Of a stretch of 64,000 nt of DNA, positions 26,800-29,591 are shown one piece after another. The position numbers and the translations under genes were made by a program. The DNA lies in contig JAZKBR010000001.1 in the NCBI GenBank assembly GCA_040388535.1, positions 83,764 through 147,763 on the forward strand, read 5' to 3'. The notes beneath the pieces were generated by a model. That model was not told the DNA's origin, ran no database searches, and worked only from the letters and a program-made list of their open reading frames with translations. This stretch comes from Gemmatimonadota bacterium (GTDB taxonomy: Bacteria; Gemmatimonadota; Gemmatimonadetes; Gemmatimonadales; GWC2-71-9). The first letter of the stretch is position 1. Each line of letters starts with the position of its first letter.

Positions 26800-28041
26800 T
26801 CAGTAGTTCCGGCGGAGTTCCGTGCCCGGAAAATAGCTCATCAGGATCGCGTCGTAGTGATGTCCCGCGCGGGCGCGACCCACCGCGCCCCACTGACACA
26901 TTCCCACCCCGTGTCCATTGCCCCGGCCCTCGATGACGACCGATTCGATCCGGCTGCCCTGCCGGGAGAGCCGGACCGTGAAATCGGTGCTGCGGAGCCA
27001 GCCGCCGGCCGGCGGCGAGAGGACACGCCGGATCGCCTGGCCGCTCACCGTGGTGCGTCCACCCGCACCCGAGAGCTCGAGGGTCGCAATCCGCCCGCTG
27101 CCGGTCCGCGAGAGGACCCGCATTTCGCGCAGATCGCTGGCGCGCGCGGTAGAGAGCCGCTCGGTTGCGAGTGTCTTGCGGAGTGACGCCGTGAAGGCCC
27201 GCCCCTCCCACTGCTCACGCCACTGGTAGCGTGGGGAGATGGCGCACCAGGCTGTGCCGTTCTCGTCCACGTCAGCGAAGCTCTTGAGGTACGGCTCGTC
27301 GGCCCCACCGAATGCCGCGGAGCCATCTTCAGTGCGGCCCCCGCACGTCGAGGAATAGAATGCCTCGATCGGTTCGCCGTTGTAGGTGAGAATCAGGCCC
27401 CGCGTGGCTTCGACGGCTGCGGTCGCCATGGGATTCTCGTTGAGCAGACCGGCGTAGGCCTGGGCCGACACATCGGCCATCAGGTCGAACCCCTGCGCGA
27501 GCCACCGCCCCTTGTTCCGTAACGCGTAGGTGCGCGAGACCACTGCCTGCGCCTTCAGCGCTTCTTCCTCCCCCGGAGCGCGCCGACCCATCTCGGCGCC
27601 GACGACGCCCTCGAGATATTGCTCGAGCCCGATGCGATTGATCACTGTGAGCCCGGACTCACTGCGTCGGAGCTCGACGCGGCCCCGGTATTCGCGACCG
27701 TCAATGCGGATGGTACCGTTGCTGTCTTGCGGTTCGAGCACCAGCGTCCGCCGCACGACCGGTGTCGTGGTCCCGCGCACGACGACGTCGCTGCCACGGG
27801 TGCTGGCCTCGAGCGAGACATCGGGATCGACTTCCTCGACGATCCCTTCGTCGAGATCGATAACCCGCAGGCCGGTGAACGCCCCGAAGGTCACCTTGCT
27901 GGCATTGATCCGTACGCCGATCCGGAACTCGGGATCGGGGGCCAGCTGCGGCACCGGCTCAGGCTCCGGCTCATTGAGGAGGCAGGAGCCCAGACTGGCG
28001 AGCGCCAGGACCAGATACAGTCCCGCGCGCGGCTTCGTCAC
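26800..28041 (-). CDS. SpoIID/LytB domain lipoprotein
   Basis: 413 residues, GTG start overlapping the yajQ stop (GTGA). Lipoprotein signal with LGSC at the cleavage site. The SpoIID domain is clear: GLEQYLEGVVGAEMG, EALKAQAVVSRTYAL, YSSTCGGRTED and GNGHGVGMCQWGA. SpoIID is a lytic transglycosylase acting on denuded peptidoglycan; non-sporulating bacteria use relatives in wall remodelling. The conserved Glu in GAEMG is the expected catalytic residue. Confidence 0.9.
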   Translation of the reverse strand: MTKPRAGLYLVLALASLGSCLLNEPEPEPVPQLAPDPEFRIGVRINASKVTFGAFTGLRVIDLDEGIVEEVDPDVSLEASTRGSDVVVRGTTTPVVRRTLVLEPQDSNGTIRIDGREYRGRVELRRSESGLTVINRIGLEQYLEGVVGAEMGRRAPGEEEALKAQAVVSRTYALRNKGRWLAQGFDLMADVSAQAYAGLLNENPMATAAVEATRGLILTYNGEPIEAFYSSTCGGRTEDGSAAFGGADEPYLKSFADVDENGTAWCAISPRYQWREQWEGRAFTASLRKTLATERLSTARASDLREMRVLSRTGSGRIATLELSGAGGRTTVSGQAIRRVLSPPAGGWLRSTDFTVRLSRQGSRIESVVIEGRGNGHGVGMCQWGAVGRARAGHHYDAILMSYFPGTELRRNY

Positions 28042-28541
28042 CCGCGGTAATTGCCGAACTGCAATTCCACCCCGAAGTCTTCCGTGCGAAGGAAGGCCAT
28101 CACGGCCTGCAACTCATCCCGCGACGGCGACGTCACCCGCAGCTCCTCGCCCTGGATGCTCGCCTGCACCTTCTTGAAGCCACCGTCCTTGATGGCCCGC
28201 TGGATTTTCTTGGCGGCGTCGGTCGGGATTCCCTGCGCAAGCGTGAGAACCCGGCGCACCGACATACCGGTGGCCGGGATGATGTCGCCGATGGTGAGAT
28301 TCTTGGTGGGGACGTTGCGCTTGATCAGCCGTCCGCGTACCACGTCGAGCAGCGCTTCCATCTTGAACTCGTCATCGGCGAAAAGCGCGATGGTCGCCTT
28401 TTCGCGGTCGAGTTCGATGGTGCAGTGCGTGCCCTTGAAGTCGTAGCGTCCAGCGATCTCCTTGACCGCCTGGTTGACGGCGTTATCGACTTCCTGGAGA
28501 TCCACACCGGTCGAGATATCGAACGAAGGATTGGTTGCCAT
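28038..28541 (-). CDS. YajQ family nucleotide-binding protein
   Basis: 167 residues from ATG 28541; the longer frame was dropped because MATNPSFDI matches the family start. Motifs EIAGRYDFKG and VQASIQGEELRVTSPSRDELQAVM identify YajQ (DUF520), a two-RRM-like-domain protein; relatives bind cyclic di-GMP. Divergent from the riboswitch-controlled aspartokinase gene. Confidence 0.93.
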   Translation of the reverse strand: MATNPSFDISTGVDLQEVDNAVNQAVKEIAGRYDFKGTHCTIELDREKATIALFADDEFKMEALLDVVRGRLIKRNVPTKNLTIGDIIPATGMSVRRVLTLAQGIPTDAAKKIQRAIKDGGFKKVQASIQGEELRVTSPSRDELQAVMAFLRTEDFGVELQFGNYRG

Positions 28542-28598
28542 TGGGGCACGATATCGGCGCGGCGCCGCGCCCGCAACCACCGGCAGCGTCGGCTACCC

Positions 28599-28628
28599 TT
28601 GACGGCGGCCAAAGCGCCTCGCTACTCT
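28599..28628 (+). promoter_or_regulatory. Probable sigma-70 promoter of the aspartokinase transcript
   Basis: TTGACG (28599-28604) and TACTCT (28623-28628) with an 18-base spacer. The predicted transcript start, about 28635, coincides with the first bases of the riboswitch aptamer. Confidence 0.65.
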
Positions 28629-28635
28629 AGGACAC

Positions 28636-28705
28636 CGGCGGTCGATTTATTCGGCAACTTGCACCCGCCCGGCGCGTCCGCGCCAAACCAAAGTGCTAAA
28701 GCGCC
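28636..28705 (+). ncRNA. SAM-II-type riboswitch aptamer
   Basis: Stem P1 is GGCGG (28637-28641) with CCGCC (28665-28669). Its 23-base loop has the SAM-II conserved GATTT (28644-28648) and CTTGCA (28658-28663). The 3' strand AAGTGCTAAA (28691-28700) forms the pseudoknot: ACTT with AAGT, continued by GC with GC across a bulged A, followed by the conserved GCTAAA. An extra hairpin GGCGC-GTCC-GCGCC (28671-28684) sits between. These elements and their order are those of SAM-II, known upstream of methionine-pathway genes, mainly in alphaproteobacteria. I made the assignment by eye, without covariance scoring. Confidence 0.75.
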
Positions 28706-28720
28706 CGAGGTCGGTATTCC

Positions 28721-28775
28721 GCCTCCGCGCTCCTGAGCCCGGAGGCGTTGCTGTATGCGCCTCCCCCAAGGAGGC
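28721..28775 (+). promoter_or_regulatory. Expression platform: alternating GCCTCC/GGAGGC switch covering the ribosome-binding site
   Basis: Four alternating complementary segments: GCCTCC at 28721, GGAGGC at 28741, GCCTCC at 28759 and GGAGGC at 28770; the last contains the Shine-Dalgarno sequence of the GTG start at 28779. Pairing 1-2 plus 3-4 hides the site; pairing 2-3 (7 bp with flanking G-C) frees it. This is what a translational riboswitch platform should look like. Which state SAM favours is inference, expected to be the closed one. Confidence 0.75.
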
Positions 28776-28778
28776 ACC

Positions 28779-29591
28779 GTGATTGTCATCAAGCTCGGCG
28801 GCGATGCCGTCGCCACCCCCGAACACATCGCCGCCGCCGCGCGGCGCATCGCCCGCGAACGGGCCACCAGGGAAGTTGTCGTGGTGGTCAGTGCCCGGCG
28901 CGGAGTCACTGACCAGCTGCTGGCACTGGTCGCTGCTGTCGGCCGACACACGGCCGGACCCGGCGCACCCAACGCCGCAGTGGCCGATCGCGCCGTCGCC
29001 TCGGGCGAGATCGTCGCCGCCTCCCTGGTAGCGCTGGCGCTCGAGCATCTTGGTCTCCCCGCGCGCGCGCTCGATGCCCGCGAGGCGGGACTCGAGGGCG
29101 ACGGCCGGAGCGGTGGCTCGCGGATCACCCGGATTCGCACCGGGCGGCTTCGGGCACTCCTGCGGCGCAACCTGATCCCGGTGGTCGCCGGCTTCCAGAC
29201 CCACCACAACGGCGAACTCGCTCTCCTCGGTCGCGGCGGGTCGGATGTCACCGCCGTCGCCATTGCTGCAGCGCTCGGCGCCGAGGCATGCGTGTTGCTC
29301 AAGCGCGCGGGGCTGCGTGACGCCGACCCCGTGCGCCATCCACACGCGCGTCACGTTGGCGTGGCTGGATTTGATGTGCTGGATGCCTTGCTTCAGGAGG
29401 GCAGCCGAGTGCTCGCCGTTGATGCCGCGAGACTGGCCCGCAGGTGCGGCGTGCCGTTGACCTTCGTCCCCTTTCCGGAAGAGGGTCCCGTGAGCCGGAT
29501 ACTTCCCGGGTCGAGCAGCCTCAGACCAGGAACGACTCGAGGGCCTGCGCCTGGCCCGCGTGCCGAAGCCGGAGTAGGGCCTTCTCCTTGA
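28779..29591 (+). CDS. Aspartokinase-like amino acid kinase, catalytic domain only
   Basis: 270 residues from GTG 28779 (AAGGAGG 4 bases upstream). Start VIVIKLGGDAVA matches the K-x-G-G-T-S-V-A motif of aspartokinases; LLGRGGSDVTAVAIAAALGAE is the second diagnostic motif, then ADPVRH and the VLAVDAARLARRCGVPL segment. It would phosphorylate aspartate, first step to Lys/Thr/Met. The regulatory ACT domains present in feedback-controlled aspartokinases are absent; the chain ends in a Pro/Gly/Arg tail (after about 245) that runs 71 bases into the 3' end of the convergent sigma factor gene. Control seems to be by the SAM-type riboswitch instead. Confidence 0.75.
   Translation: MIVIKLGGDAVATPEHIAAAARRIARERATREVVVVVSARRGVTDQLLALVAAVGRHTAGPGAPNAAVADRAVASGEIVAASLVALALEHLGLPARALDAREAGLEGDGRSGGSRITRIRTGRLRALLRRNLIPVVAGFQTHHNGELALLGRGGSDVTAVAIAAALGAEACVLLKRAGLRDADPVRHPHARHVGVAGFDVLDALLQEGSRVLAVDAARLARRCGVPLTFVPFPEEGPVSRILPGSSSLRPGTTRGPAPGPRAEAGVGPSP

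Follow-up and report, generated by a model that had tools for sequence, protein, structure and literature searches.

A SAM-II/SAM-V-like leader with a P3 hairpin and a putative translational switch upstream of a divergent aspartokinase-like gene in Gemmatimonadota

The leader and its gene

The DNA analysed here (the window) is a stretch of 64,000 nucleotides from a Gemmatimonadota genome of 3.7 Mb in 11 contigs. Positions 28599-28778 form a leader whose gene, monocistronic and aspartokinase-like, lies directly downstream on the plus strand (28779-29591) and starts with GTG at 28779. The divergent neighbour on the other side of the leader is a yajQ-family gene (28038-28580, minus strand). The leader opens with promoter-like boxes (28599-28628, plus strand), a -35-like TTGACG (28599-28604) and a -10-like TACTCT (28623-28628) that are spaced by 18 nt and end 8 nt 5' of helix P1. 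The original prediction called this promoter consensus-like; the boxes match the consensus at 8 of 12 positions and a promoter scan requiring 9 of 12 made no call anywhere in the window, but most relatives of the leader keep a TTGAC box with a TANNNT-like box about 17 nt downstream.

The protein (270 aa) consists of an AA_kinase catalytic domain only (PF00696, 125.1 bits). Its best NCBIfam matches are aspartate kinases, all below cut-off, and a profile search found no match to an ACT domain. The KFGGTS motif reads KLGGDA and TDVDG is lost or replaced, so that activity on aspartate is not certain; these changes are partly common to its relatives. A divergent clade made up of this protein and six others (L007, L008, L036-L039) carries K(L/F)GGDA for KFGGTS and an altered TDVDG, and judging from the sequences its substrate or activity may have changed. 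The window genome contains further AA_kinase genes, one of which encodes a 448-aa aspartokinase-like protein (L083). Some gene identities given here are profile hits under curated cut-offs or come from reading translations.

Aptamer core

Nucleotides 28637-28705 form a SAM-II-like H-type pseudoknot composed of P1, a GAUUU third strand, P2 (UUGCAC/GUGCUAA) and P2a (GGC/GCC). P1 pairs GGCGG (28637-28641) with CCGCC (28665-28669). Its loop holds the third strand (GATTT in the DNA, 28644-28648), the 5' strand of P2a (GGC, 28653-28655) and the 5' strand of P2 (28659-28664, within CTTGCAC at 28658-28664). The segment 28685-28700 consists of the A-rich strand AAACCAAA, the P2 3' strand GUGC (28693-28696) and UAAA (28697-28700), the expected SAM-contacting bases; the motif GTGCTAAA lies at 28693-28700. 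The 3' strand of P2a, GCC (28703-28705), overlaps the antiterminator strand described below. An alternative pseudoknot of ACUU with AAGU was dropped in view of the SAM-V structure paper, and P2 as drawn here is consistent with the pairs in the metY SAM-V crystal structure (PMC6061858). The ligand-site bases known from the SAM-V and SAM-II crystal structures are all present: the UUU of the third strand, the UU:AA triples, the bulged U and the AAA. From these we infer that the ligand is SAM.

All motifs named in the original prediction were located where it had placed them. It overlooked P2a, a hairpin at 28671-28684 (P3) and a fifth strand of the expression platform at 28700-28710 (segment 0).

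P1 is formed in all 26 sequences that we compared, with compensatory changes at two pairs. P2 pairs GCAC with GUGC; at its third pair the window has A-U where ten relatives have U-A, a compensatory change, and eight metH-type members of a wider set have C-G. Some metH-type members carry an additional or mismatched P2 nucleotide (GCCUAAAG, GUCUAAAG). P2a is GGC/GCC in 11 of 11 sequences, and this invariance within the subtype means that covariation gives it no support there.

The P3 hairpin and lineage-specific covariance models

Between P1 and the A-rich strand lies P3 (GGCGC-GUCC-GCGCC, 28671-28684, plus strand), which has a counterpart of differing sequence in all relatives of this type. Both sides change at all four counted pairs, and 97% of the P3 cells are paired (98.7% for P1 and P3 together). 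Cells with a double change number 41, against 10.7 in shuffles, and the covariation of P1, P2 and P3 exceeds both shuffles and slid controls.

A search pattern with a widened gap between CTTGC and GCTAAA matched 20 of 395 Gemmatimonadota genomes, compared with five for the reversed pattern. Most of the 20 matches read GGCGG-GATTT, CTTGCNN-CCGCC, a hairpin of variable length and sequence and then a ACCAAAGNGCTAAAGCGCC-like strand. A covariance model built from 11 sequences, the window among them (R1), enlarged the set, so that P3-type copies are counted in about 27 of the 395 genomes, and also brought in shorter relatives. For a second model (R2) the window was excluded and 26 relatives were used; the frame of R2 was taken from R1 hits, so that the hold-out is not perfectly independent. 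R2 scored the window aptamer at 57.2 bits, with a runner-up inside the window of 8.7 bits, and this was its single match in the window genome (E 1.3e-10), which rules out chance resemblance. A strict pattern run over 84,980 species genomes gave 28 matches; the P1 5' strand is present in only seven, all Gemmatimonadota metagenome-assembled genomes, and the other 21 look like chance.

The SAM-II-type core and pseudoknot of the original prediction are thereby borne out: the prediction was to fall if a covariance score and conservation of P1 and the pseudoknot were lacking, and with the lineage-specific model a clear score was obtained and both helices are conserved.

Distribution and gene context

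The Rfam model for SAM-II (RF00521) is above cut-off in 120 of 200 Gemmatimonadota genomes, so SAM-II is common in the phylum. The window genome has a SAM-II element (41.9 bits, G000:C2:999635-999709) preceding metH and a further SAM-II match (33.2 bits, G000:C7:186579-186652) preceding a metX-like gene, read by eye, and then a MetB/MetY-like gene. The P3-type copies precede metY (including metY-aspartokinase operons), metH and one dapD, most of them at metY and metH; downstream genes were mostly identified by eye from translations, and representatives were verified by profile.

The six best homologues of the kinase outside the window (49-54% identity) come from genomes in which the riboswitch is followed by metY and then by the kinase, about 1.7 kb downstream of the riboswitch. 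In one genome (G022) metX comes after metY-kinase. Another genome of the same order as the window (G140) has a canonical SAM-II directly before a kinase-hom-metX-metB operon. Since both kinds of operon stand under SAM riboswitches, we regard the kinase as a methionine-regulon protein that is solitary in the window. An aspartokinase target had been predicted and called unusual; an aspartokinase-like target stands, and it is less odd given that its closest homologues belong to metY-kinase operons that follow a riboswitch of this type and that G140 offers a parallel. The nine other genomes of the genus have neither this kinase nor the riboswitch. Within the family the element occurs in 10 of 102 genomes, and among these ten no second case was found in which it directly precedes the kinase. 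Searches of the literature collection used for this analysis returned nothing relevant on SAM-II in connection with Gemmatimonadota or with aspartate kinase.

The dapD case (L157:1501-1573, minus strand, in G023) belongs to the same type of riboswitch but has GTTTT instead of GATTT and a P2 of UUGUUC/GAACUAA; the downstream gene scores 276.6 bits to NF008808. The arrangement would place the lysine-branch gene dapD under SAM-type control.

The methionine-gene context (metY-kinase, metH) and the two SAM-II elements elsewhere in the window genome support a SAM riboswitch. A shift in specificity of the same core to an aspartate-family metabolite seems very improbable: the aspartokinase-like gene and dapD are two targets that belong to the aspartate pathway but not to its methionine branch proper, and altered-ligand riboswitch variants are known for a SAM aptamer (PMC10853860), but the SAM-contacting bases of the SAM-V structure are retained and most relatives have metY and metH as their targets.

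In eight relatives (L138, L140-L145, L202) a short Cys-rich upstream ORF (for example MRRCPCMCRCRCRCAPRG..., MCCRICMCRP...) lies between the riboswitch terminator and metY; neither the window nor L139 has this arrangement. A second terminator-like hairpin follows this ORF before metY, and the whole looks like a SAM riboswitch in tandem with a cysteine leader-peptide attenuator.

Expression platform

Downstream of the aptamer, four complementary hexamers alternate on the plus strand: GCCTCC (28721-28726, segment 1), GGAGGC (28741-28746, segment 2), GCCTCC (28759-28764, segment 3) and GGAGGC (28770-28775, segment 4), the last being the Shine-Dalgarno sequence. When the 69-base platform was subjected to 20,000 dinucleotide shuffles, the pattern arose once, and no other 69-base stretch on the plus strand of the window has it. 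Segment 0 can pair with segment 1 and its flank (28700-28731; AGCGC 28700-28704 with GCGCU 28727-28731, and GAGG 28707-28710 with CCUC 28722-28725), giving an antiterminator duplex (0:1) of -15.2 kcal/mol that 7 of 200 shuffles equal. Hairpin 1:2 (28720-28747, CGCCUCCG/CGGAGGCG) occupies the position of the intrinsic terminator of the relatives and is followed by a poor U-tract, UUGCUGUAU (28748-28756). Pairing 2:3 (28741-28764; GGAGGCGU 28741-28748 with GCGCCUCC 28757-28764) is the proposed ON state, while hairpin 3:4 (28759-28775; GCCUCC 28759-28764 with GGAGGC 28770-28775) masks the Shine-Dalgarno sequence and is the proposed OFF state.

In nearly all of the 25 relatives the aptamer is followed by a predicted terminator, a GC-rich hairpin that ends in a T-rich tail. 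After their conserved UAA the metY types have the strand AGCGCCGGA and the metH types AGUGCCGGG; it pairs with the terminator 5' arm (UCCGCGCU, CCCCGCAC), and GCG/CGC and GUG/CAC covary in this antiterminator, with exceptions such as L161. The relatives thus have a conserved antiterminator that is predicted to compete with P2a upstream of an intrinsic terminator. Across 26 sequences, the total duplex energy was lower for own than for permuted antiterminator partners in 5000 of 5000 permutations, relatedness being uncontrolled. The antiterminator of the window ranks among the strongest of the set, though both of its strands diverge from the relatives. No homologous counterpart of hairpin 3:4 or of the four-hexamer arrangement was found in the relatives, so that it is seen in one genome only. 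The original prediction of a four-segment platform forming a separate downstream switch therefore holds for the four segments, which end at the Shine-Dalgarno sequence and are not a product of chance, but hexamers 1 and 2 correspond to the terminator hairpin of the relatives and only hexamers 3 and 4 are specific to the window.

The homologous hairpin position and the antiterminator of the relatives are also what a transcriptional attenuator alone would leave, in which the SAM-bound 1:2 hairpin terminates as in the relatives and the Shine-Dalgarno hairpin is incidental; several close relatives have imperfect U-tracts too (TTGCGTTTC, TTGTTGTGC, ATCATGCG). We consider such an attenuator unlikely, although it is the most plausible of the alternatives: the window U-tract TTGCTGTA has four T in eight, a terminator scan made no call in the window, hairpin 1:2 with its U-tract included, and it is improbable that the hexamer pair would be repeated exactly over the Shine-Dalgarno sequence by chance. 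The poor U-tract and the second layer that hides the ribosome-binding site instead indicate that control is probably mainly translational, with residual termination possible.

Folding of the nascent leader and proposed mechanism

Because folding programs cannot treat a pseudoknot, the SAM-bound state was imitated by barring the P2 and P2a strands from other pairing. The nascent transcript to 28735 folds into P1, P3 and 0:1; the antiterminator forms in nascent folds without SAM and is absent when the P2a strands are barred. Hairpin 1:2 is favoured in transcripts ending at 28747-28760, whether SAM is present or not. At ends 28764-28770, the energy minimum without SAM combines 0:1 with 2:3, and 1:2 takes over when the P2 and P2a strands are barred, mostly with probabilities above 0.9 each. 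With P1 and P3 kept, the transcript ending at 28790 gives 2:3 at 0.91 without SAM and 3:4 at 0.79 with SAM; the contrast is smaller at ends 28780, 28810 and 28830. At equilibrium to 28830, 1:2 and 3:4 both exceed 0.95 in either state except where P1 and P3 are retained, and the Shine-Dalgarno sequence is calculated to be mostly paired in every state. A translational switch would consequently need a kinetic mechanism. Calculated in this way, nascent-chain folding supports the logic and direction of the switch, not its size.

The dominance of both hairpins at equilibrium whatever the state of the aptamer would also fit a decayed leader, with a recognisable aptamer, a platform that no longer switches and a Shine-Dalgarno hairpin that merely reduces translation. 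This is improbable given that the window antiterminator is so strong despite its divergent strands and that 0:1 with 2:3 is the minimum at lengths 28764-28770.

Our preferred reading, to which we assign a probability of roughly 0.65, is that the leader is a SAM-sensing riboswitch of the SAM-II/SAM-V kind with a P3 hairpin, acting as an OFF switch mainly at the level of translation and derived from a terminator/antiterminator platform. With SAM bound, P2 and P2a would form, tying up the strand 28703-28705; segment 1 would then be free to pair with segment 2 in the terminator-like hairpin, and 3:4 would mask the Shine-Dalgarno sequence and turn the gene off. Without SAM, P2a would remain unformed and segment 0 (28700-28710) would pair with segment 1 as the antiterminator, leaving 2 to pair with 3 and the Shine-Dalgarno sequence freed, so that the gene is on. 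The choice would be made co-transcriptionally, and the platform would descend from the terminator/antiterminator still present in the relatives, which makes the leader a candidate for an expression platform that changes its level of control. SAM control at the RNA level, in an aspartokinase that lacks an ACT domain, would be in keeping with riboswitch feedback having taken the place of allosteric feedback.

Relation to SAM-II and SAM-V

SAM-II consists of P1 and P2 and is, contrary to the original prediction that it classically hides the ribosome-binding site in the pseudoknot, mostly transcriptional and coupled to terminators (PMC1273637, PMC2258182, PMC6061858), as the relatives of the window element are predicted to be. 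SAM-V has the same core with a P3 stem-loop, is translational and marine (PMC6061858, PMC2704228), and its stem-loop is followed by an A-rich strand into P2 (PMC6061858). The P2a-type 3' pairing that characterizes SAM-II is lacking in SAM-V, where the aptamer lies within about 10 nt of the start codon (PMC2704228). The two classes have a common binding core; their separation rested in part on the lengths of the helices, on the 3' pairing element and on whether control is transcriptional or translational.

With SAM-II (RF00521, SAM_alpha) the window element shares the single stem P1 and the pseudoknot P2 with its ligand-site bases, GAUUU, CUUGC and GCUAAAG, the final 3' pairing element P2a, a promoter directly before P1, an association with methionine genes and, in most members, a terminator platform. 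Unlike SAM-II, it has the covarying P3 between P1 and the P2 3' strand in place of the A-rich L3 linker, a P1 of GGCGG/CCGCC, a divergent aspartokinase as its target and a Shine-Dalgarno hairpin downstream of the terminator position. P3 after P1, with the A-rich strand running into P2, is shared with SAM-V (RF01826), but the window keeps the 3' pairing element, its start codon lies 74 nt after P2a (a platform of about 70 nt, against about 10 nt or fewer in SAM-V), and its lineage is GC-rich and not marine. In the SAM-II leaders of Sinorhizobium meliloti, metZ is under terminator control and metA combines Shine-Dalgarno sequestration with a terminator; there the Shine-Dalgarno sequence lies inside the riboswitch, whereas in the window it is in a separate downstream hairpin (PMC9373788).

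At gathering thresholds Rfam has zero matches in the window. With permissive settings RF00521 aligns weakly (12.2 bits against a cut-off of 36, E 2.2) with P1 misaligned, and it has no match at E 5 in eight loci with hairpin-bearing relatives. RF01826 was searched at E 10 against 12 genomes with P3-type elements, that of the window included, and matched none of them; SAM-V membership is rejected on this ground. The strict label SAM-II is backed by P1, P2, the ligand-site bases and P2a, but not by the Rfam score or by the hairpin in L3. With the core of both classes, the P2a of SAM-II, the P3 of SAM-V and both Rfam scores failing, we file the element as a variant inside the SAM-II/SAM-V superfamily and outside both curated families.

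The P3-bearing elements are a conserved, putative SAM riboswitch subtype in one phylum that Rfam misses. We give even odds to the broader proposal that they are a distinct unannotated subclass structurally linking SAM-II and SAM-V, and that the window shows a terminator/antiterminator platform in conversion to a combined termination-plus-translation switch for a divergent aspartokinase. Four elements from the same taxonomic class as the P3 types (L164-L167) lack P3 and have a P1 of GGUGG/CCACC (GGTGG/CCACC in the DNA) and an A-rich linker; they may bridge canonical SAM-II and the P3 type in evolution, and suggest either insertion of P3 into the SAM-II linker or its loss from there. A covarying lineage that joins the P2a and terminators of SAM-II to a SAM-V-like P3, together with such P3-less intermediates, makes the relationship between the two classes directly testable. 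At class level another hairpin-bearing subtype (L100, L101, L102, L104), weakly covered by R1 and R2, precedes metH-like genes and has a P1 of GGGC/GCCC and AAACACGCTAAA.
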